Source of the DNA: Synergistetes bacterium HGW-Synergistetes-1
GTDB lineage: Bacteria; Synergistota; Synergistia; Synergistales; Synergistaceae
Direction of reading: 5' to 3'
NCBI GenBank assembly: GCA_002839185.1
Contig: PGXO01000002.1
Coordinates: 62,001 to 126,000, forward strand
DNA length: 64,000 bases
The notes under the pieces were generated by a model. The model saw only the letters and a list, made by a program, of their open reading frames with translations. It searched no databases and was not told where the DNA came from. Of this stretch, positions 23,460-63,447 are shown piece by piece. Each line of letters begins with the position of its first letter. Position 1 is the stretch's first letter. A program made the position numbers and the translations under genes.

Positions 23460-24158
23460 CTAGCTGTTTCCCACTCTTCTCCTTAGAAAAGAAAGGGAGA
23501 TGTTCAATGCGAATGAAATTGAGAGCAAAACTATTCCCAGGGCTATGCCAAGGGCGAAATCTCCCTTGCCTGTCTCAAGCGTTATCGCAGTAGTTATCGT
23601 TCTTGTGTGCCACTTGATGTTTCCGCCCAGCATCATCGCTGAACCTACCTCTCCTATGATCCTTCCGTAGGAGGTCAGCGCGGCGACAAGGATCTGAAAA
23701 CGTCCTTCCCAGAGGCTTGTTACAGCAAGTTTTGCGCCTGAAGCCCCGAGCGTCTGCAGAGTAAGTTTCAGCCTGTTGTCAAGGCCTTCTATAGCAGTGG
23801 CCGTGTAAGAAATAACGATCGGCAGCCCTAGTATGATCTGTCCTATCGCCATTCCGCGAATGGTGAAAAGAAGCTGAAAATCACCGAGGGGACCTCTTCT
23901 CGATATAAAGGCATAAACGAGAAGCCCCACTACAACGGTAGGAAGTGAAAGCAGGGTGTCTGTTATGGTTCTGAGAAGGTGTTTACCGGGGAAATCGAAA
24001 TAACCCAACGCAAAGCCCAGCGGCAGGCCAAGTCCAAGAATAAAGAGCATGGAAAGGCCGGTCAGTCTCAGAGTTGTAAGCACAATATTCACAGTTTCCT
24101 CGTCCATTGATGCAATAAGCCCTATGGACTGGAAAAAACCTTGAATAATGAAATCCAC
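23460..24158 (-). CDS. tupB: Tungstate ABC transporter permease
   Basis: A 232-residue inner-membrane protein with about five membrane segments, the usual TupB size. The cytoplasmic EAA-type loop that contacts the ATPase is seen near ASGAKLAVTSLWEGR. GTG at 24158 is the start, with AAGGAGGG upstream. It lies directly after tupA (74 bp), and its partners are the binding proteins on both sides and TupC. Confidence 0.85.
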   Translation of the reverse strand: MDFIIQGFFQSIGLIASMDEETVNIVLTTLRLTGLSMLFILGLGLPLGFALGYFDFPGKHLLRTITDTLLSLPTVVVGLLVYAFISRRGPLGDFQLLFTIRGMAIGQIILGLPIVISYTATAIEGLDNRLKLTLQTLGASGAKLAVTSLWEGRFQILVAALTSYGRIIGEVGSAMMLGGNIKWHTRTITTAITLETGKGDFALGIALGIVLLSISFALNISLSFLRRRVGNS

Positions 24159-24232: not shown

Positions 24233-25084
24233 TTAGTGTCCGGCTCTGATCTCGGCGTTGGGGAAGAAGAGCTGCTTGCCTTCCAGCTTGAAGTTTGCGA
24301 TATCCTTCTGGACCTTTGAAGAGGTGATCCAGTCGATGTACTTGATGGCAAGGTCGTACTTTGCATGCGGGTGTTTGATAGGGTTGACAGCCATAACACT
24401 GTACATGTTCAGGAGCTGTTTGTCTCCCTCTACTACTATAACGAGCCCCGGTTTGCCTTTGAGATTTGCGTCATATTTAATGAATGTGCCTCTGTCAGCA
24501 AGGGCGTACCCTTTGCGCTCATCAGCGATGTTGATCGTATTGAGCATTCCCTGTCCTGTCTGTACATACCAGGTCGCCTTGTCGAAATCTTTGACTCCGG
24601 CCTCTTTGAGAAGTTTAAGTTCTGCTGAATGTGTACCGGATTTGTCCGCGCGGCTCACAAGAGGCTGTCCCTTCGCGGCTATTGTCGCAATCGCCTGGGT
24701 TATGGGTTTGCCCTTTATACCTGCCGGGTCGTTTGCGGGGCCGATCAGGACGAAGTCGTTGTACATGACCTTACGTCGGTTAACACCTGCGCCGTCTGAC
24801 ATAAACTTGTCTTCGGCTGCCGGATCATGGGTAAGGACTACGTCAACATCTCCGTTACGTCCGTACTCAAGTGCCTTTCCTGTTCCGACGGATACCCACT
24901 GGATCTCGATCCCTGTATCCTTCAGCAGGATAGGAGCCATATAATCGAGAAGGCCTGTATTGTCGGTGCTGGTAGTTGTTGCCATTCTGAGAACGGGCGG
25001 TTTGGCATATGCAAATGAGCCCAAAGTGAGCATGCATACTGCAATGATGGTGATAAAAAGTAAGAAACGTTTGTTGCTTTTCAT
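24233..25084 (-). CDS. tupA: Tungstate-binding periplasmic protein
   Basis: A 283-residue binding protein with a signal peptide (residues 1-27, ending SFAYA). The mature N-terminus has RMATTTSTDNTGLLDY, the TTTSTxxTGLLDYL signature of the tungstate-specific TupA family whose Thr/Ser residues ligate the oxyanion. GTGKALEYGRNGDVDVVLTHDPAAE and MYNDFVLIGP follow. Tungstate supports aldehyde oxidoreductases and formate dehydrogenases in anaerobes. The start at 25084 has AGGAGGGG about 8 nt upstream; a longer frame to 25201 would hide the signal peptide. It is the first gene of the operon, 3' of two riboswitch-like elements. Confidence 0.88.
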   Translation of the reverse strand: MKSNKRFLLFITIIAVCMLTLGSFAYAKPPVLRMATTTSTDNTGLLDYMAPILLKDTGIEIQWVSVGTGKALEYGRNGDVDVVLTHDPAAEDKFMSDGAGVNRRKVMYNDFVLIGPANDPAGIKGKPITQAIATIAAKGQPLVSRADKSGTHSAELKLLKEAGVKDFDKATWYVQTGQGMLNTINIADERKGYALADRGTFIKYDANLKGKPGLVIVVEGDKQLLNMYSVMAVNPIKHPHAKYDLAIKYIDWITSSKVQKDIANFKLEGKQLFFPNAEIRAGH

Positions 25085-25196
25085 GGGGATACCCCTCCTT
25101 AAAAGATGTATTGGTGCTAAAAACCTTTTTGAGACCTTGAAGAATAGGAGGGCATTGATATTGATATCGCACGTGGCGAAATATTTGCCCCCTTTC

Positions 25197-25304
25197 CACA
25201 ATGGGAGACGGATCCGTTTCCAGATCCGCCCTAACGTCTGTTTTCCATAGCATGCGCCGCAGGAAAAACAGATTCAGGGTAGTCTCTTGATTTGATCAGG
25301 AGAC
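25197..25304 (-). ncRNA. Moco/Tuco-riboswitch-like element, tupA-proximal copy
   Basis: This element shares ordered blocks with the copy at 25554-25649 (plus-strand sense: CCTTTCC 25201-25207, GGGAG 25213-25217, CCGTTTCCAG 25224-25233, CCCTAAC 25239-25245). On the minus-strand RNA the blocks build a closing stem GUCUCC (25304-25299) with GGGGGC (25202-25197) and a hairpin CGGAUCUG-GAAA-CGGAUCCG capped by a GAAA tetraloop. The position before a tungstate importer suggests the molybdenum/tungsten-cofactor riboswitch class; the class assignment is inference. It has no obvious terminator of its own and ends 113 nt before the tupA start, so control would be by another mechanism. Confidence 0.55.
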
Positions 25305-25404: not shown

Positions 25405-25419
25405 TGCAACTTAATTGCA
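25405..25419. promoter_or_regulatory. TGCAAC-TTA-ATTGCA palindrome, candidate operator
   Basis: Same 15-bp plan (6-3-6) as the sites before pruA, modA and the Fur-family gene, with one mismatch between half-sites. It lies 321 bp before tupA, between the first terminator and the second riboswitch-like element. Confidence 0.55.
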
Positions 25420-25536: not shown

Positions 25537-25553
25537 ATAAAGTACAGACAGCC

Positions 25554-25649
25554 GTTCTCCTTTCCAAAGGGAGGCTCCGCCGTTTCCAGCGAAACCCTAA
25601 CGGCCCGGCCCCCATGGATAATATCTTTAGGCGGACAGGCTCGGAGAAC
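25554..25649 (-). ncRNA. Moco/Tuco-riboswitch-like element, promoter-proximal copy
   Basis: A 96-nt segment closed by a perfect stem GUUCUCC (25649-25643) with GGAGAAC (25560-25554). Inside are UCCGCC and GGCGGA, which can pair, and a hairpin UUUCGCUG-GAAA-CGGCGGAG with the same GAAA loop as the second copy but different stem bases, that is, compensatory change. Conserved blocks on the plus strand: CCTTTCC (25559-25565), GGGAG (25569-25573), CCGTTTCCAG (25580-25589), CCCTAAC (25595-25601). Followed by an intrinsic terminator and then the tungstate operon, it should sense a molybdenum or tungsten cofactor; this class assignment was not checked against a covariance model. Confidence 0.65.
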
Positions 25650-25666
25650 AATCGATTACTTTTGCT

Positions 25667-42187: not shown

Positions 42188-43819
42188 CTATTTATCTTCC
42201 ATAAAAGGATATGAATACCAACGCGGCGGCATAAGGATTTCTTTTATTGTCTTCGGGGAAACCCATTTTAAGAGGTTCAACTGGCTCCCGGCCTTGTCAT
42301 TTGTCCCTGATGCCCGTCCGCCGCCGAACGGCTGCAGCCCTATACAGGCTCCTGTCGTTTTGTCGTTTATGTAGAAATTGCCTGCTGCGTATTTCAGTGC
42401 CTCATGCGATTTTCTTATCGCCGCACGGTCTTTTGCAAAGAAGCTTCCTGTAAGGGCGTATGGAGATGTGTTATTGCAGATGTCCATTGTTTCTTCAAAT
42501 TTATCGTCATCGTAAACGAAAAGAGTGAGGATAGGTCCGAATATTTCTTCTTCCATTGTCAAAAAGTGCGGATTGACGGTCTTAATTATCGTAGGCTTGA
42601 TAAAGTATCCTATACTTTTATCCCCCGAGCCGCCGTGGATTATTTCTGCTTCAGACGACTTTTTTGCGTAACTTATGTACTTCATGCAGTTGTCAAAAGA
42701 ATTTTCGTCAATGACGGCATTTACAAAATTACGGAAATCACGGGGATCTCCTGTCTTTATGGATACCATCATTTCATCCAGTTGGTTCTTAACTTCGCCC
42801 CAGCGGCTTACGGGAATGTAGCAGCGTGATGTTGCAGAACATTTTTGCCCTTGATATTCAAAAGCGCCTCTTATCATAGCAGTTGCAGTTTCTGTTGCGT
42901 CTGCTGAATTGTGCATGAAAACAAAGTTTTTGCCGCCTGTCTCACCGACAAGACGGGGGTATGACTTATATGTGTTCAGATTTTCAGCTATACCCTTCCA
43001 CAAACCGTTAAAAACCTGGGTTGAACCTGTGAAGTGTACGCCGGCAAGATCCTTATGCGCAAGTACTACCTTGCTGCCCACCGATCCAGGGCCTGGCATG
43101 AAGTTTAAAACCCCTGCGGGCAGTCCCGCTTCTGCATAAATCTTCATCAGATAGTAGCTTGACAGCAGTGATGTGGTTGCCGGTTTCCATACCACGGTGT
43201 TTCCCATCAGCACAGGGGCCATCGGGAGATTTGCCGCGAGAGCGGTGAAATTGAAAGGAGATACTGCGTAAACGAAACCTTCAAGAGGCCTGTATTCAAC
43301 ACAGTTAATGGCCCCATCCTCTGATGTTGGCTGATTTTTGTAAATTTCGCTCATATAGTGGACGCCGTAATGGAAATAATCAATGGTCTCGCTGGCTGAT
43401 TCTATTTCAGCCTGCCATACGTTTTTGCTTTGCCCCATCATCGTAGCTGCGTTTAATATGTAGCGATATTTTGTTTTTATCAGCTCCGCTATTTTCATAA
43501 TGATTGCTGCGCGGTCGGTGTAAGACATGCCCGCCCATTTATTGTGGGCATCAAGGGCCGCCTTGATTGCTATTTCCATTTCCGCACTTCCTGCTTTGTG
43601 ATAGACCGCCAACCTGTGTTTGTGATCGTGAGGCATAACGACACTGCCTGTATTGCCGGTACGGATCTCTTCTCCACCTATGATAAGAGGTATTTCTGCG
43701 ACATTAGAAGATATTTCCTCAATGGCTTCTTTTAGAAGTTTTCTATCCATTGATCCCGGAGCGTAATCTCTGGATACATCATTAAACGGTTTTTCATAAC
43801 TAAAAAGAGCGTTGCTCAA
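42188..43819 (-). CDS. pruA: L-glutamate gamma-semialdehyde (1-pyrroline-5-carboxylate) dehydrogenase
   Basis: A 543-residue aldehyde dehydrogenase of the stand-alone P5CDH group, oxidising glutamate semialdehyde to glutamate with NAD, the last step of proline or ornithine/arginine breakdown. Visible are VSPFNFTALAANLPMAPVLMGNTVVWKPA, HFTGSTQVF, the general-base VGETGGKN and the nucleophile block FEYQGQKCSATSR, and a terminal LQPFGGGRASGTNDKAG. The TTG at 43819 is the start, with AAGGGGG 8 nt upstream; this gives the family length. The leader holds the best copy of the TGCAAC palindrome. Glutamate from this reaction can feed the neighbouring 2-oxoglutarate/citrate genes. Confidence 0.92.
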   Translation of the reverse strand: MSNALFSYEKPFNDVSRDYAPGSMDRKLLKEAIEEISSNVAEIPLIIGGEEIRTGNTGSVVMPHDHKHRLAVYHKAGSAEMEIAIKAALDAHNKWAGMSYTDRAAIIMKIAELIKTKYRYILNAATMMGQSKNVWQAEIESASETIDYFHYGVHYMSEIYKNQPTSEDGAINCVEYRPLEGFVYAVSPFNFTALAANLPMAPVLMGNTVVWKPATTSLLSSYYLMKIYAEAGLPAGVLNFMPGPGSVGSKVVLAHKDLAGVHFTGSTQVFNGLWKGIAENLNTYKSYPRLVGETGGKNFVFMHNSADATETATAMIRGAFEYQGQKCSATSRCYIPVSRWGEVKNQLDEMMVSIKTGDPRDFRNFVNAVIDENSFDNCMKYISYAKKSSEAEIIHGGSGDKSIGYFIKPTIIKTVNPHFLTMEEEIFGPILTLFVYDDDKFEETMDICNNTSPYALTGSFFAKDRAAIRKSHEALKYAAGNFYINDKTTGACIGLQPFGGGRASGTNDKAGSQLNLLKWVSPKTIKEILMPPRWYSYPFMEDK

Positions 43820-43842: not shown

Positions 43843-43867
43843 TTAAATGCAACTAGGTTGCATTTAA
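43843..43867. promoter_or_regulatory. Perfect 25-bp palindrome, candidate repressor site at pruA
   Basis: Arms TTAAATGCAAC (43843-43853) and GTTGCATTTAA (43857-43867) around TAG. The core TGCAAC-TAG-GTTGCA (43848-43862) is the best copy of the motif shared with modA, tup and the Fur-family gene. It sits just downstream of the predicted transcription start, a position that favours repression. Confidence 0.75.
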
Positions 43868-44558: not shown

Positions 44559-45629
44559 CTATTTTCTTAAGGGCATAATCATATCAATAGGGATGTTTAC
44601 TGCCATAATATCTCCCGGCAGAACAAAATTATCTTCAATAGAAGGCAGTTCCATTTGAATTTGAGAAAATTCTTTTTTTGGATCAGCGTCCTGAGGTGTC
44701 AGTGTAATAATAACGGAAAAAAGGTCATGTCTGATCTCAAGTACGCGGCAAATAACTTTGTTTTGGCATTCATCACCCATGCGAAAAGGAAGGATTCTAT
44801 GAGCCCGTACGCCAATATATTTCGTATCATCAGGTATAAAGGTATTACACCTTAAGTTAACTTTCCAGTCGAAAGCATGCACAGTGTTATGTGATAGTTT
44901 TTCTGCTTTTGAGTAGTTTTTGCATCCTGATAGCAAAGCTGACGCTAATGTTGATGGAGAATTGAAGAATTCATTGACCGAACTGACCTTTTCAGAATGG
45001 CCTTTGTTTATGACACATACCTTCTTACATAGCCTGTAAACTTCATCCCTGTTATGAGATACATAAAGAGTGCTCCCTTTGTATTTACCAAGGATTTCTG
45101 TGAGTTCCTTTTCGACCTGCCAACGCAGATAACTGTCAAGGGCCGATAATGGTTCATCAAGCATTATGATTTTAGGATCACTTGCCATAATTCTGGCAAG
45201 AGCAACACGCTGCTGCTGTCCCCCTGAAAGCTGTCCAGGATAATGTTTTTCAAGTCCTGTTAAATAAAAACTTTCCAGAAGGAGGTCTAACCGTTCTTTT
45301 GTGTTCTTTTGCCCATTACAGTTTTTCAGAACGGTATAAAGATTCTGCTCCACTGTCATATTAGGAAAAAGGGCGTAGTTTTGGAAAAGCAATCCGACAT
45401 GTCTTTCCTGAGGGCTCAGGTTGATCTTCTTGTCTGAGTCAAACAATGTTACGCCGTCTACGACGATACGTCCTTCATCCGGTTTGACTATGCCAGCTAT
45501 GCATTTCAGCGTCATGCTTTTGCCGGAACCTGAAGATCCCAGCAGAGCCAGTATCTCATTCCCCGCTTCAAACTCGGTGTTAAGGACGAAATTACCGAAC
45601 GATTTAATTATTTTAACGTATATTGACAT
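44559..45629 (-). CDS. modC: Molybdate ABC transporter ATP-binding protein
   Basis: A 356-residue ATPase, with Walker A GSSGSGKS at 31-38, LSGGQQQRVALARIMA signature, IIMLDEPLSALD Walker B, and a C-terminal TOBE/MOP-like region from about 285 on (IGVRAHRILPFRM), matching ModC length and layout. It powers molybdate uptake with ModB. AGAGGTAAAA precedes the ATG. It is the last gene of modABC, 8 bp after modB. Confidence 0.9.
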   Translation of the reverse strand: MSIYVKIIKSFGNFVLNTEFEAGNEILALLGSSGSGKSMTLKCIAGIVKPDEGRIVVDGVTLFDSDKKINLSPQERHVGLLFQNYALFPNMTVEQNLYTVLKNCNGQKNTKERLDLLLESFYLTGLEKHYPGQLSGGQQQRVALARIMASDPKIIMLDEPLSALDSYLRWQVEKELTEILGKYKGSTLYVSHNRDEVYRLCKKVCVINKGHSEKVSSVNEFFNSPSTLASALLSGCKNYSKAEKLSHNTVHAFDWKVNLRCNTFIPDDTKYIGVRAHRILPFRMGDECQNKVICRVLEIRHDLFSVIITLTPQDADPKKEFSQIQMELPSIEDNFVLPGDIMAVNIPIDMIMPLRK

Positions 45630-45637
45630 TTTTACCT

Positions 45638-46336
45638 CTAATCTTCATGCTCAAAATGATCTTTCGCTGCCCCAACAGGCTGTTTATAGCTATTTTCGAG
45701 CATATTTACCGTTACCAGTACTATAAACGAAATTATAAGATTTATAAATACCCACTTATAGGCAAGAGCGTCGTTTCCTTCTCTCCAAAGTTGGTATACC
45801 GTTGTAGATATTATTGCGGTCCTGCCTGGAATATAGCCGGAGACCATTGTTGTAGCTCCGAATTCTCCAAGCGCACGCGCAAAAGAGAGAACTGCGCCGG
45901 CGAGGATACCCTGTTTGCAGTTTGGCATCACGACCCGCCAGAATAGGAAGGTATTCGATAATCCGAGAGTTTGTCCTGAGTAGAGCAGTGTGCTGTCAAA
46001 TGATTCAAACGCGCCTCGGGCAGTGCGATAGATCAAGGGAAAGGAAATTATTGTTGTTGCGAAAACAGCCGAATACCACGTCATAGTCAATTTAAAGCCA
46101 AATACTTCAAGAACCCGCGAACCTACCGGTCCCAACGGGCCTATAATTTTTAGCAGGAAAAATCCAATCACAGTTGGGGGCAAAACCAGAGGCAAAGTCA
46201 GAATACCATCAAGCACCCCTTTAATAAGCCGAGGTGTTTTTGCAATGTAATGCGCGGCAAATATTCCCAGGAAAAATGTAATGAATGTTGAAATCAATGC
46301 TACTCTCAACGAATTATAAAGAGGAAACCAGTCCAT
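45638..46336 (-). CDS. modB: Molybdate ABC transporter permease
   Basis: A 232-residue inner-membrane protein with about five membrane helices. The LTLPLVLPPTVIGFFLL segment near residue 45 and the cytoplasmic YSGQTLGLSNTFLFWRVVMPNCKQGILAG loop, the EAA motif for the ATPase, are ModB hallmarks; ALGEFGATTMVSG follows. It lies between modA (84 bp) and modC (8 bp). Confidence 0.93.
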   Translation of the reverse strand: MDWFPLYNSLRVALISTFITFFLGIFAAHYIAKTPRLIKGVLDGILTLPLVLPPTVIGFFLLKIIGPLGPVGSRVLEVFGFKLTMTWYSAVFATTIISFPLIYRTARGAFESFDSTLLYSGQTLGLSNTFLFWRVVMPNCKQGILAGAVLSFARALGEFGATTMVSGYIPGRTAIISTTVYQLWREGNDALAYKWVFINLIISFIVLVTVNMLENSYKQPVGAAKDHFEHED

Positions 46337-46420: not shown

Positions 46421-47245
46421 TTATTTGGCTGGAACAGCGAATCCAATTTTGTTAAAGATCTTTAAGCTTTCCGGTCCCTTAAGAAAAGCAATAAATGCGT
46501 TCGCCGCTTCGGGATTTTTCGCATTCTTCAAAATTGCTGCAGGGTAAGTTATCGGCCGGTGACTTCCCTTCGGTGCTTCTGCTACAACATCCACACCTTT
46601 TGATGTTGCGGCATCGGTGCTGTATACAACACCGCAATCAACGGCTCCGGCAGCGACCTGTGAAAGAACTTCTTTTACATTACTTGCGTAGCTTATTTTG
46701 TTCATGCTTTTAAGTTTGTCCCAAAGGCCAAGATTTCTGTATATTTCTTCCGAGTATTGTCCGACCGGAACATCCGAATTACCGAGTGCAATGATAAAAA
46801 CCTTTTCTGTGACTACATCTTTAAAGTCATTGATCCCTTTGGGATTGTGCCCTTTTGGAACCACCATCACAACTTTATTGGAAACTATGTTGAAACGTGT
46901 CCCATCCATTACAAGGTCAAGTTTCTTGGTGTTTACCTTGGAAGCCGCCTTAATGTCGATCTGATCCATTTGCTTCTGGCCTGCCGATATGAAAATATCG
47001 CACTCCGCACCCTGTTCGATCTGTGTTTTCAGGGTGCCGCTTGAATCAAAATTAAAGATGATCTTTACGTCAGGGACTGTTTTTTTGTACGCTTCCGCGA
47101 TCATATTCATAGATTCTGTCATTGACGCCGCAGCGAATACAGTCAGGTTTGTATCGGCGTTTGCGGGTAACGGAAGTGTGAAGAGAGAGAGGATCAATAA
47201 GAACAGAGAAAGAAGAGAGAACTTAAAAGATTTTGGCACAATCAC
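46421..47245 (-). CDS. modA: Molybdate-binding periplasmic protein
   Basis: A 274-residue binding protein with a signal peptide (residues 1-31, ending ANA). The mature part has LTVFAAASMTESMNMIAEAYKK, then FNFDSSGTLKTQIEQGAECDIFISAG and GNSDVPVGQYSEEIYRNLG, the ModA signatures in which Ser, Ala and Tyr residues bind molybdate. GTG at 47245 is the start, with AGGAGG upstream; an overlapping ATG reads into a stop at once. Its promoter carries a TGCAAC palindrome over the -35 box. Confidence 0.93.
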   Translation of the reverse strand: MIVPKSFKFSLLSLFLLILSLFTLPLPANADTNLTVFAAASMTESMNMIAEAYKKTVPDVKIIFNFDSSGTLKTQIEQGAECDIFISAGQKQMDQIDIKAASKVNTKKLDLVMDGTRFNIVSNKVVMVVPKGHNPKGINDFKDVVTEKVFIIALGNSDVPVGQYSEEIYRNLGLWDKLKSMNKISYASNVKEVLSQVAAGAVDCGVVYSTDAATSKGVDVVAEAPKGSHRPITYPAAILKNAKNPEAANAFIAFLKGPESLKIFNKIGFAVPAK

Positions 47246-47284: not shown

Positions 47285-47313
47285 ATTATAGTAGAGCCTC
47301 TTTGTTTTTGCAA
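47285..47313 (-). promoter_or_regulatory. Sigma-70-type promoter of modABC
   Basis: On the minus strand, TTGCAA (47313-47308) and TATAAT (47290-47285) are spaced by exactly 17 bp, 40 bp before the modA start codon. The -35 box lies inside the candidate operator. Confidence 0.75.
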
Positions 47314-47323
47314 CATTGTTGCG
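47309..47323. promoter_or_regulatory. TGCAAC-ATT-GTTGCG palindrome over the mod -35 box
   Basis: A 15-bp site of the same 6-3-6 plan as those at pruA, tup and the Fur-family gene. A protein bound here would block RNA polymerase at the modABC promoter. Confidence 0.7.
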
Positions 47324-57167: not shown

Positions 57168-57200
57168 AAAAAAAAACCGGGACCCCTGAAGGGCCCCGGT
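57168..57200 (-). terminator. Attenuator of the ilv-leu operon
   Basis: On the minus strand ACCGGGGCCC (57200-57191) pairs with GGGGTCCCGGT (57186-57176), followed by nine T (57176-57168). It lies between the leader peptide stop and ilvN. The leader segment GGGTCCCCCG just after the Leu/Val/Ile codons can pair with CGGGGCCC of the terminator's first arm, giving a candidate antiterminator. Confidence 0.85.
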
Positions 57201-57218
57201 CCGAAAGTAACACGACGT

Positions 57219-57314
57219 TTAAGCGTCGGCCACCTCGGGGGACCCACTGCTAATAAGAAGTACTAGTACGAGAACCAGACTAAATATGTCACGGATCAAA
57301 CTGTCTATTCGCAT
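57219..57314 (-). CDS. Branched-chain leader peptide
   Basis: A 31-codon frame starting at ATG 57314 with AAGGTGGG 7 nt upstream. Residues 13-21 read LVLVLVLLI, a run of nine Leu, Val and Ile codons, the control region of a classical ribosome-mediated attenuator. Shortage of any charged branched-chain tRNA would stall the ribosome here and favour an antiterminator. The stop is 19 nt before the terminator stem. A strong promoter lies 67 bp upstream of the ATG. Confidence 0.85.
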   Translation of the reverse strand: MRIDSLIRDIFSLVLVLVLLISSGSPEVADA

Positions 57315-57380
57315 TTTATGTCCCACCTTTCGAGGTTTAGGCCTGCCCGCCGGGTGCTATGACCTGACGTAATGGGCGAC

Positions 57381-57633: not shown

Positions 57634-57662
57634 TTGCAGGCTCAGATGGAATGCATTAAAAT
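57634..57662 (+). promoter_or_regulatory. Promoter of the Fur-family/molybdopterin operon
   Basis: TTGCAG (57634-57639) and TAAAAT (57657-57662) are spaced by 17 bp. The candidate operator begins at the last base of the -10 box, so a bound protein would block transcription initiation. Confidence 0.6.
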
Positions 57663-57676
57663 GCAAATTGGTTGCG
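57662..57676. promoter_or_regulatory. TGCAAA-TTG-GTTGCG palindrome before the Fur-family gene
   Basis: Same 6-3-6 plan as the sites at pruA, modA and tup, flanked by TTAAAA and TTTAA as at pruA. It is 23 bp before the TTG start, consistent with autoregulation. Confidence 0.65.
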
Positions 57677-57699
57677 TTTAATATCCAAGGGGTGATTTT

Positions 57700-58122
57700 T
57701 TGAACGTTGAAAAAATACTTAGCGTTGCAAAACTGAGAGCCACACATCAGAGAAAGCTCGTACTGCGGCTTTTGGTGGAAAAAGGTTCCCCTCTCTCTCA
57801 TAGCGAGATATCCTCTACCCTTGTCGAATCGCTTGATAAGGTCACGCTGTACAGGACCCTGCAGACCCTTAAAGCCGCGGGCATTGTACACCAGGTTCAG
57901 GGGCTGGACGGAGTATGGCGCTTCTGCGCCCATGATCCGGAGTCAAAGGGCTGTCCCGGGGATCATCCCCATTTCCTTTGTCTTCACTGCGGAAAAATGT
58001 TTTGTCTTACAGATCAGCGGCTTCCCCGGGTCGAGGTTCCCGAGGGTATGACAGTTGAGGGCAAACAGCTTGTTGTATATGGGTGCTGCAGTGAATGCAG
58101 CCCTGAAACGGAGGCCGGATAA
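57700..58122 (+). CDS. Fur-family transcriptional regulator
   Basis: A 140-residue protein with the Fur fold: an N-terminal winged helix (recognition region DKVTLYRTLQTLKAAGIV, residues 46-63) and a C-terminal dimer domain. Two Cys pairs, C94-x2-C97 and C129/C130-x2-C133, form the structural zinc site; H89 and H91 are potential metal-sensing ligands. Which metal it senses is not evident. The start is TTG at 57700 behind AAGGGGTGA. It lies 2 bp upstream of a molybdopterin-binding protein gene and upstream of xdhC, and a TGCAAA palindrome sits on its promoter. An unusual partner set for a Fur, Zur or PerR protein. Confidence 0.88.
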   Translation: MNVEKILSVAKLRATHQRKLVLRLLVEKGSPLSHSEISSTLVESLDKVTLYRTLQTLKAAGIVHQVQGLDGVWRFCAHDPESKGCPGDHPHFLCLHCGKMFCLTDQRLPRVEVPEGMTVEGKQLVVYGCCSECSPETEAG

Positions 58123-58124
58123 AC

Positions 58125-59171
58125 ATGAAGATAACAGTGATCCCGCTTGAAGGAGCCATTGGCAGGCCTCTTGCACATGACCTTACACAGATAGATGCGG
58201 TGAACCACAAAAAATCTGCCCGTTTCAAAAAAGGCCAGGTTATTACGGAAGAAGATATCCCCACACTGAAGGACATGGGAAGGGAAAACCTCTCTGTTAT
58301 GGAAATGTCTCCCGGAGAAGTTCATGAAGATGACGCTGCTATGCAGCTCGCGGAGGTGCTCTGCGGAGAGAACTTGAGGATAACGCCTCCTGAAGAGGGC
58401 CGCTGCAATCTCATCGCGACAAGTTCAGGCATACTATGGTACCTTGCTGAGACAGTCAACAGGGTGAATCAGGATCCCGACTGGGTGCTTTCTGCGTTGG
58501 CGCCTCACCGCCCTGTACTCAAAGGACAGACGGTCGCGGGTTTTCGCATAAGACCCCTTGTAATGGAAGACTACAGGGTCGAACGTGCCGTCGCGGCAGT
58601 TAGAGGAAGCAGACCTTTCGCTGTGCTGCCCTTCAGGGATCTCAAAGTAGCTGTCGTGACCACGGGCAAAGAGATAGTTGACAAAAGGGTACAGGATGCT
58701 TTCAGGCCGAAGCTTGATGAAAAACTGAGCAGGCTCAGCGGCAGCGTTATAGGGCAGGCCTTCTGCACTGATTCTCTTGAACAGATAGCCAATGCAATCA
58801 ATAAATTCCTTGATGAGGGAGCCAAGGTAATAATATGCACCGGAGGGATGAGCGTGGACGCGGACGACAGAACGCCCGGAGCTATCCGTTCTGTCTGCAG
58901 GAAGATCTCTTTCCAGGGATCTCCCGCCCTGCCGGGCGCCATGCTTATGCTGGGTTATGCCAAGTCACCCATCGACGGAGAAGATGTAGCGGTCATAGGC
59001 GCACCTGCCTGTGTTGCCTTTGATGAGAGGACAGCGCTGGATAAACTGCTGCCTTTTGTCTTTGCAGGCATAGAGCCTGGCGACCTTGTGCGAAGATGGG
59101 GTGTGGGAGGACTTTGCGAACACTGCCCGACCTGCCGGTATCCTTCGTGCTCTTTCGCGGCAGGAAGCTGA
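58125..59171 (+). CDS. Molybdopterin-binding (MoCF/MogA-like domain) protein with C-terminal Cys cluster
   Basis: A 348-residue protein. Residues about 175-320 form a MoaB/Mog-type molybdopterin-binding fold with VAVVTTGKEIV and ICTGGMSVDADDRTPGAI, the family's binding loop. The N-terminal 150 residues resemble the region found in stand-alone molybdopterin-binding proteins of anaerobes. The last 20 residues hold a compact cluster (CEHCPTCRYPSC) that could bind metal or an Fe-S centre. The protein probably handles molybdopterin during insertion into molybdenum hydroxylases together with XdhC downstream. It begins 2 bp after the Fur-family gene. Confidence 0.85.
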   Translation: MKITVIPLEGAIGRPLAHDLTQIDAVNHKKSARFKKGQVITEEDIPTLKDMGRENLSVMEMSPGEVHEDDAAMQLAEVLCGENLRITPPEEGRCNLIATSSGILWYLAETVNRVNQDPDWVLSALAPHRPVLKGQTVAGFRIRPLVMEDYRVERAVAAVRGSRPFAVLPFRDLKVAVVTTGKEIVDKRVQDAFRPKLDEKLSRLSGSVIGQAFCTDSLEQIANAINKFLDEGAKVIICTGGMSVDADDRTPGAIRSVCRKISFQGSPALPGAMLMLGYAKSPIDGEDVAVIGAPACVAFDERTALDKLLPFVFAGIEPGDLVRRWGVGGLCEHCPTCRYPSCSFAAGS

Positions 59172-59244: not shown

Positions 59245-60045
59245 ATGAACAGAGATCTTTTGGCCCTAATAAGCAGAGAGGTCGAAGCCGGTGACTACGG
59301 TGTGCTTTGCACTGTTACCGAGGAATCCGGATCGACCCCCAGGAGCAAAGGTGCTTCCATGTGGGTGTACAAGGACGGCAGCATCAGCGGCACTATCGGC
59401 GGGGGACTCTTAGAATTTGAAACGATCAAAAAAGCCACGGAACTTCTAGCTTCAGGTGATACAGTGCTAGTATGGAAGAAGGAGCTTACAGAGAAGGACG
59501 GAATGCTCTGCGGAGGTTCAGCAACGATCTATATGGAAGTGATAGGTAGAGAAGATGAACTTGTGATCCTTGGTGCAGGACATGTGGGAAAGGCTGTTGC
59601 CGAGGTCGGGGTTTTTGCAGGATTCAGGGTCACAGTATGGGACGAGAGGGAAGAGTATGCTAACAGCGAGAATATCCCCTGTGCCCGCACGGTCGTCTGT
59701 CCTATCGGCAATATATACGAAAAAGGGATAACTCTCCACGAGAGAAGCTATGTGGTCATAGTGACCCGTGGACATGCACTGGATGCAGAGGCTGTGGCGA
59801 TAACGGACAAAAAGCCCGGGGCATATTATGGAATGATAGGTTCGCGCTCAAAGATAGCGGCGGTTAGGAAGATGCTTGTTGCAAGAGGTGTCTCGCAGGA
59901 ACATTTGGACCGGATACACCAGCCGATAGGACTTCCGATAAAAGCTGAGACTCCCGAAGAGATCGCGGTCTCGATCCTTGCCGAGATCATCGCGGTAAGA
60001 AGAGGCGGGGACCTTTATGATCTGAAGAAAGCCAGCCAGTCATGA
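59245..60045 (+). CDS. xdhC: XdhC/CoxI-family molybdenum cofactor maturation protein
   Basis: A 266-residue protein with the XdhC plan: an N-terminal CoxI part (EESGSTPRSKGASMWV, then GTIGGGLLE) and a C-terminal Rossmann part starting LVILGAGHVGKAVAEVG. The latter contains VIVTRGHALDAEAV and YYGMIGSRSKIAAVR. XdhC binds molybdenum cofactor and aids its sulfuration and insertion into xanthine-dehydrogenase-like enzymes. It lies 73 bp after the molybdopterin-binding protein in one operon ending at a terminator. No hydroxylase is encoded nearby. Confidence 0.88.
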   Translation: MNRDLLALISREVEAGDYGVLCTVTEESGSTPRSKGASMWVYKDGSISGTIGGGLLEFETIKKATELLASGDTVLVWKKELTEKDGMLCGGSATIYMEVIGREDELVILGAGHVGKAVAEVGVFAGFRVTVWDEREEYANSENIPCARTVVCPIGNIYEKGITLHERSYVVIVTRGHALDAEAVAITDKKPGAYYGMIGSRSKIAAVRKMLVARGVSQEHLDRIHQPIGLPIKAETPEEIAVSILAEIIAVRRGGDLYDLKKASQS

Positions 60046-62791: not shown

Positions 62792-63447
62792 AGATGTGAA
62801 AAGAGTAGGTCGTAGGATTTTTACGGATGATTGACCGACATTGATACATTAAGAATCATGAGGTAAATCTCATCTCTTTGTCTTGATCTGTCTCAGCTTT
62901 TATCTACGCGAAAAATGACATATCTGAGCAATTGTACCAAATCTACATAAAATTGCTTGCATCATTTCGATTTATATGATAAAAAGCGACTAGTGATAGC
63001 GGTAATAAGGAGGGTAGGGTATTTAAGTCTATCATCACAAACCGAGTCAAGCATTTTTAAAATCTGACCTAACTGGATTACAGTTATACGAATGGCCATA
63101 CGGACAGCCGGGTCAAATGCCGAACTAGCGATTGTGATATCGTGTTGATGAGCCAGAGCTCAAATTTTGTTGCGGAGACCTCCGCGAAATTGTGTTCATA
63201 AGTTTAGAGTACTTGTGAATGGTCGACATGAGCAGTAAAAGTATATATTACTGTATAGGCTCAAATAAACTACCAATATTTGTATAATACATCAATCAAA
63301 TAAAGTAGGGATCATCTATCAAGTACAACTATCCTGTCTTTTCCCCTGAGGAAGGCGGGTGGTTGTTTTTTATTTTAAGGGGTGTAAAGCAAGCACCCCG
63401 AGTGGATGAACACTCATGCGGAGGCCATTTTCAGAAAGGAGCCTGAG
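62792..63447. other. 656-bp non-coding region before speD
   Basis: No protein-coding gene is supported: all frames are short and lack ribosome-binding sites. The last 120 bp hold a terminator-like hairpin (63333-63377) and two small hairpins, GGGGTG/CACCCC (63379-63384 with 63394-63399) and GAGTG/CACTC directly after it, which would form part of the speD leader. Confidence 0.5.
63333..63377 (+). terminator. Terminator-like hairpin in the speD leader
   Basis: CCTGTCTT (63333-63340) pairs with AAGGCGGG (63352-63359, with G-U pairs), followed by a T-rich tail (TTGTTTTTTATTTT). It lies 70 bp before the speD start, so it could end an upstream transcript or attenuate speD. Confidence 0.45.

Follow-up and report, generated by a model that had tools for sequence, protein, structure and literature searches.

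A candidate Fur-family regulator of molybdenum and tungsten genes: a distinct subfamily linked to one palindrome in Synergistota and other phyla

The window, that is, the whole stretch of 64,000 nucleotides from Synergistetes bacterium HGW-Synergistetes-1 that was analysed, encodes a Fur-family regulator, here called FurX, followed by a gene for a MoeA-like molybdopterin-binding protein, which starts 2 bp after furX, and then by the gene for an XdhC-family maturation factor (Table 1). The preliminary description of this DNA had placed the regulator in an operon with these two genes, and the gene order was confirmed by the PF01475, PF00994 and NCBIfam matches. With a 99% identical protein in MAG UBA6101, the genome falls into Synergistaceae. 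Also present are modABC-type and tup-type transport genes, pruA, and two Moco/Tuco riboswitches. For pruA, a start near 43819 is more likely than the ORF start at 43852, which falls inside the box discussed below.

Table 1. Genes, riboswitches and palindromic sites at the window loci considered here.
Feature	Position	Strand	Evidence or remark
furX, Fur-family regulator, 140 aa	57700..58122	+	PF01475 45.4 bits, cut-off 23.1
MoeA-like molybdopterin-binding protein	58125..59171	+	PF00994; MoCF_biosynth domain residues 176-310, C-terminal Cys cluster
XdhC-family maturation factor	59245..60045	+	best NCBIfam match aldehyde oxidoreductase maturation factor, below its cut-off
modA	46421..47245	-	TIGR01256 168 bits, cut-off 62.5
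modB	45638..46336	-	TIGR02141 over cut-off
modC-type ATPase	44559..45629	-	profile matches
pruA, L-glutamate gamma-semialdehyde dehydrogenase	42188..43819	-	TIGR01236 738 bits, over cut-off
tupA-type tungstate-binding protein	24233..25084 (start near 25084)	-	NF041772 best match, 321 bits, below cut-off 400
tupB-type permease	23460..24158	-	NF041773 best match, 273 bits, below cut-off 320
Moco/Tuco riboswitch RF01055, between box and tupA	25173..25290	-	56.9 bits
Second Moco/Tuco riboswitch, upstream of tup box	25541..25658	-	77.6 bits
FurX box before furX, TGCAAATTGGTTGCG	57662..57676	.	preserved 5' of furX in close relatives
FurX box before modABC	47309..47323	.	window pattern match
FurX box before pruA, perfect TGCAACTAGGTTGCA	43848..43862	.	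window pattern match
FurX box in tup leader, between two Moco/W-cofactor riboswitches	25405..25419	.	

Two further features of the window were observed. Upstream of ilvN, a short ORF encoding MRIDSLIRDIFSLVLVLVLLISSGSPEVADA is followed by a 13-pair terminator (57174-57326, minus strand), which is likely a branched-chain amino acid leader peptide with its attenuator. At 63065-63123 (plus strand) lies an Rfam match to the SpF59 sRNA (RF02440, 53.7 bits), a Streptococcus family found here in a Synergistaceae genome.

Matches to TGCAAMNNNRTTGCR in the window are exactly the four intergenic 15-bp sites, built on one plan, that had been described from the sequence, with one of them counted on both strands. 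By dinucleotide shuffling, 0.04 matches to the pattern TGCAAM-N3-RTTGCR are expected, and none of 100 shuffles reached five. The shared flanks TTAAA/TTTAA, also part of that description, are present at the sites at 43848 and 57662. Across the whole 2.17-Mb genome the loose pattern matches at 13 unique sites, versus one for the reversed control, and the exact palindrome with at most one mismatch has 10 versus one. Seven of the 13 loose sites were dropped as targets, as three are copies of one AATCGGTTGCAAATCTATTGC repeat and four lie inside coding regions; these seven look like chance matches or repeats. The repeat, AATCGGTTGCAAATCTATTGC(A/G)AATCAAT(C/T), has its three copies (L008, L009 and L010) near genes that by eye resemble ftsH, gltX and pstC. 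Beyond the window, good sites precede a second ModA-type ABC operon (C3:146759; ModA TIGR01256 79.5 bits, over cut-off) and the gene for a 941-aa Mo hydroxylase (C7:56789), a molybdopterin-dependent aldehyde oxidoreductase according to NCBIfam NF045668 (1390 bits, over cut-off). Five of the six credible sites in this genome are located before Mo/W genes or the furX operon, and the sixth before pruA.

In a sample of 151 Synergistota genomes, a FurX orthologue was found in 62, with orthologues defined strictly by E below 1e-37 and separated by a wide gap from paralogues, which score 1e-22 and weaker. For the exact palindrome TGCAACNNNGTTGCA, 63 copies were found in 46 of the genomes, compared to seven copies of the reversed control. 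The pattern TGCAAMNNNKTTGCA pools two box types, and only the C/G form tracks FurX: the box TGCAAC-N3-GTTGCA is present in 44 of the 62 genomes with FurX versus 2 of the 89 without (Fisher p = 5e-21, a value that, like those below, overstates independence because of kinship among the genomes). Among genomes with modA over cut-off, the box was found in 44/59 with FurX and 0/24 without (p = 5e-11). As the split persists in modA-bearing genomes, the link does not merely reflect loss of the target genes. The fairer figure is the split at the level of genera, where 24 of 29 genera with FurX and none of the 24 lacking it have the box (p = 3e-10). Whether the motif tracks the orthologue in relatives, a question raised in the preliminary description, is answered in the affirmative by these counts. 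Eighteen of the 62 FurX genomes lack the exact box, and the three that were checked (G004, G040, G052) have one-mismatch boxes at the mod or furX operon. One apparent exception with a box and no FurX, G125, was set aside, because its box lies at the 3' end of a 3-kb contig (C189, L140) that carries a Bacteroidota-like Fur and is probably contamination. In the other, G084, FurX was not found in a fragmented MAG whose genus is that of FurX carriers.

The targets of the 63 boxes were found by tblastn with a panel of proteins from the window and its own genome, and were tallied by hand. The Mo hydroxylase (aldehyde oxidoreductase) is the target of 25 boxes, Mo/W ABC transport genes of 22, the furX/MoeA-like operon of six, and pruA of four, in four genera. 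Together these make up 57 of the 63 boxes, and the earlier proposal that the sites serve Mo/W genes was borne out, with the furX operon and pruA included in this count. PruA is not a Mo protein, which counts against reading the targets as a Mo/W regulon. A DUF364 gene and an NMT1-type ABC operon are targets of one box each, and four boxes have no recognised target, two of these in FurX-free genomes. A gene for ZnuA was detected by the tblastn panel near none of the 63 boxes, so a regulon dominated by zinc uptake, the outcome that would have spoken against the preliminary description, was not seen. Within 1.5 kb of the site, a panel Mo/W gene was found for 27/31 sites of the TGCAAC type versus 0/14 control sites of the TGCAAA type.

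Some of the targets are worth a remark in their own right. The NAD-type aldehyde dehydrogenase PruA (in the window, L130, L138 and L141) shares its box with the Mo-dependent aldehyde oxidoreductase and may be a metal-free equivalent of it in the metabolism of aldehydes. In G050, the box precedes an NMT1-type ABC operon (L134:6001 onward) whose last gene codes for a DUF364 protein with a putative role in chelating heavy metals; this operon may be a Mo/W uptake system of a kind not yet described. Genes of the DUF364 family were found next to boxes repeatedly.

The neighbourhood of furX varies in order more than in content. In several Synergistota families furX lies inside modABC operons, with the order modABC-moeA-like-furX in G042, G086, G051 and G081, furX-DUF364-modABC-moeA-like in G012, and furX-modABC-xdhC-moeA-like in G073 and G095. 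An apparent FurX-ModA fusion in the latter two genomes was rejected as an ORF-calling artefact, since furX and then modA occupy separate, overlapping frames. FurX also occurs beyond the phylum, in Spirochaetales, Myxococcota/Delta-type bacteria, and one Eisenbacteria MAG. We read 19 furX loci from MAGs of these three groups, and the exact box was found in seven, for which about 0.01 would be expected by our estimate from 12 fixed bases, and in six of these it precedes furX or its operon (L170, L178, L196, L209, L219, L221), including loci in Myxococcota/Delta-type and Eisenbacteria MAGs. When 16 of the genomes that carry these loci were searched whole, the box appeared once in each of seven genomes and nowhere else. 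Several of these loci (L170, L174, L178, L221) have furX adjoining modABC or tup together with a MoeA-like gene, and the arrangement of box, furX and mod/tup recurs in Spirochaetales; others adjoin TonB receptors (L191, L196). Of the genes around furX, the MoeA-like gene recurs most constantly, also across phyla, although some loci have none nearby, and its C-terminal Cys cluster is conserved.

FurX consists of an HTH and a dimerisation domain with two CxxC pairs and the potential ligands H64, C76, C85, H89, H91 and C102. A domain search returned only FUR and a weak HTH match, and its best relatives of solved structure are Fur, PerR and Zur. Membership in the Fur superfamily is evident from PF01475 over cut-off and from C94/C97, C130/C133 and H89/H91, which are kept in 61-62 of 62 FurX sequences. 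Across several phyla, the motif C85-P-G, H89, H91 and C102 are invariant in all 62, H64 is conserved in 61 and C76 in 56. In the alignment, C85 sits in an insertion missing from Fur, PerR and actinobacterial Zur, and C102 takes the place of the usual Glu or Asp. A His conserved in Zur, Fur and PerR, which we take to be the site-3 His, is replaced by Lys in 56 and by Arg in five of the 62 (K122 in the window protein). C85, C102 and K122 are unlike the sensory site of actinobacterial Zur (PMC6103462). In a maximum-likelihood tree, which is rough because of the short alignment (146 columns), FurX forms one group with 94/95 support, apart from the Zur of Synergistota, Actinobacteria and Xanthomonas and from Fur and PerR. 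One sequence inside the group, Cls2_L252, was discounted as an exception because it is a 12% fragment.

These features bear on the question whether FurX might simply be a Zur-type sensor of zinc or another divalent metal, with the Mo/W genes following that metal. H64, C76, H89 and H91 indeed align with the sensory residues of Zur, C102 is shared with the Zur of Synergistota, and the box equals a predicted Zur box of Desulfovibrio (PMC545781). However, the genome of the window encodes three Fur-family proteins, and one of the two others, whose gene immediately precedes those for a ZnuA-like protein and an ABC ATPase, is the Zur of this organism; no FurX box was found at this znu operon. In relatives, the Zur-znuABC operons (L224, L227, L231) carry a different palindrome of the TGCAAATNATTTGCA type immediately upstream. 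Together with the distance of FurX from all sampled Zur in the tree, the Lys or Arg in place of the conserved His in 61 of 62 sequences, and the lack of ZnuA near the boxes, this makes an ordinary zinc sensor unlikely. Neither control of zinc uptake or zinc sparing nor grouping with known Zur, by which a Zur would be recognised, was found for FurX. The Zur palindrome TGCAAATNATTTGCA, which was also seen at L225, differs from the FurX box by one base per half-site, and this suggests a split in specificity between the paralogues.

The operator itself has a longer history. A study of 2004 predicted ATGCAACNNNGTTGCAT as a Zur box that precedes znuABC-zur in two Desulfovibrio (PMC545781). In apparent Myxococcota, ATGCAACNNNGTTGCAT is found before further Fur-like proteins as well, and in one such genome before a protein that we read from the sequence as a COG0523-like GTPase. 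These Fur-like proteins constitute a third class, encoded directly behind ATGCAACNNNGTTGCAT at L273, L275, L276, L277 and L280. Because the same sequence is found at znuABC-zur of Desulfovibrio and at Fur-like genes of apparent Myxococcota, the operator is an old one of Zur type, and the novelty lies in the subfamily and its regulon. The preliminary description, which had postulated an undescribed Fur-type regulator of Mo/W metabolism, thus stands with respect to the subfamily and regulon, but its palindrome had already been predicted as the Zur box of Desulfovibrio. It is plausible that a Zur-like gene was duplicated and kept its DNA site while the targets changed.

The Myxococcota proteins behind the same box also raise the possibility that some other regulator, either a Fur paralogue or a factor encoded near the mod genes, binds the box, FurX being simply encoded nearby or itself a target. 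Against this, the occurrence of the box tracks that of FurX across individual genomes, and furX has the box in front of it in lineages with differing operon orders. The two other Fur paralogues in the genome of the window are the Zur in the znu operon and a protein of the Fur/PerR type, and ModE is almost absent from the phylum, with credible TIGR00637 matches confined to two genomes without FurX, G037 and G049. A response regulator encoded beside the aldehyde oxidoreductase does not adjoin the mod or furX sites. We therefore regard a different box-binding protein as highly improbable. The response regulator is of the DpiA type, and its gene has its own upstream Moco riboswitch in L021 (6372-7302), L131, L137, L143 and L145.

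Where a sigma-70-type promoter could be recognised, 11 of 15 boxes overlap it or sit just downstream. At modA, TTGCAA within the box may serve as the -35 element, 17 bp before TATAAT; at pruA, the box is located just 3' of the candidate promoter TTGACT-17-TATCAT; at the aldehyde oxidoreductase, it follows a candidate -10; and the box before furX starts immediately 3' of TAAAAT, a possible -10. These are candidate repressor positions, matches to a consensus being no proof of a promoter. The Moco riboswitch begins inside the box at the aldehyde-oxidoreductase loci L021, L131, L137 and L143, and about 90 bp away at L102.

Comparison across genomes thus brings out the subfamily, the box, a predicted regulon, a putative autoregulatory site and their association across phyla. 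We infer that FurX itself binds the box, and quite probably it is a Fur-family factor that controls a Mo/W regulon in a layer above the Moco riboswitches. A FurX dimer would bind the palindrome (A)TGCAAC-N3-GTTGCA(T) and control uptake of the ModABC and TupA types, the Mo-dependent aldehyde oxidoreductase, its own MoeA-like/XdhC operon and, in some genera, pruA. Judging from the boxes on or just after candidate promoters, FurX most likely acts as a repressor of the Mo/W genes, presumably when the supply of Mo/W or of the cofactor is adequate. At the aldehyde-oxidoreductase and tup promoters, FurX may gate transcription, and the Moco riboswitch read-through or translation.

How FurX would perceive Mo/W status is a separate matter. 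The ligand may be held at a remodelled site formed by H64, C76, C85, H89, H91, C102 and K122. The Lys at the position of the conserved His fits poorly into a simple cation site and would be suitable for binding an anion. Because of this residue, direct sensing of molybdate or tungstate is retained as a tentative reading, in which a cation site might have been rebuilt (C102, K122 and the C85-P-G loop) for the oxyanion or a Mo/W-thiolate; this may well not be the case, but it is conceivable. Alternatively, the structural corepressor of FurX could be an ordinary metal, with Mo read indirectly, via the MoeA-like protein or a cofactor intermediate. The constancy of the MoeA-like neighbour and its Cys cluster would fit such a partnership, whereas its gene is not nearby at some furX loci, and at some targets riboswitches already sense Moco itself. 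We consider indirect reading rather doubtful. FurX is small and probably soluble and has a predicted 15-bp site, and the claim is thus directly testable.

The comparison supports a distinct Fur subfamily that occurs in several phyla and has a predicted link to a Mo/W regulon. If true, such a subfamily devoted to Mo/W would take the place that ModE, nearly absent from Synergistota, leaves empty, and would explain how Mo/W uptake and the Mo-dependent aldehyde oxidoreductase are controlled in this phylum. It would also be a test case for how a sensor of metal cations is adapted to another element with its Zur-type operator retained. Direct oxyanion sensing, if it were confirmed, would make FurX the first oxyanion sensor of the Fur family and a ModE-independent regulator of Mo/W genes across phyla. 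Fur-family proteins sense Fe, Zn, Mn, Ni, heme or peroxide, and Mo/W control is so far assigned to regulators unrelated to this family. No description of a Fur-family Mo or W regulator was found in open-access full texts, a scope outside which most subscription papers fall, and FurX is likely novel in this respect.

Among known systems, Zur, including the predicted Zur_D of Desulfovibrio, is closest to FurX, which shares the Fur fold, the CxxC pairs, the Zur-like H/C/H/H ligands and the palindrome ATGCAACNNNGTTGCAT. FurX differs in its predicted targets, Mo/W uptake and Mo enzymes, in its separate clade, in the invariant C85-P-G loop and C102, and in that its genome encodes a Zur besides. ModE controls modABC and Moco genes, as proposed for FurX, but it differs in fold and contains TOBE domains that bind molybdate, and FurX has neither. 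TunR/ModE-like HTH regulators of Desulfovibrio, which are not members of the Fur family, regulate tungstate/molybdate uptake in anaerobes. The operator at the Desulfovibrio mod sites, CGGTCACG-N14-CGTGACCG (PMC545781), is unlike the FurX box. The Moco/Tuco riboswitch RF01055 shares part of the FurX targets, namely the tup and aldehyde-oxidoreductase leaders, but it is an RNA sensor of the cofactor, and the FurX box is also found at promoters without RF01055. At moaA of E. coli, ModE works together with the Moco RNA (PMC2408646), and there, too, the control has two layers, with a protein at the promoter and an RNA in the leader.
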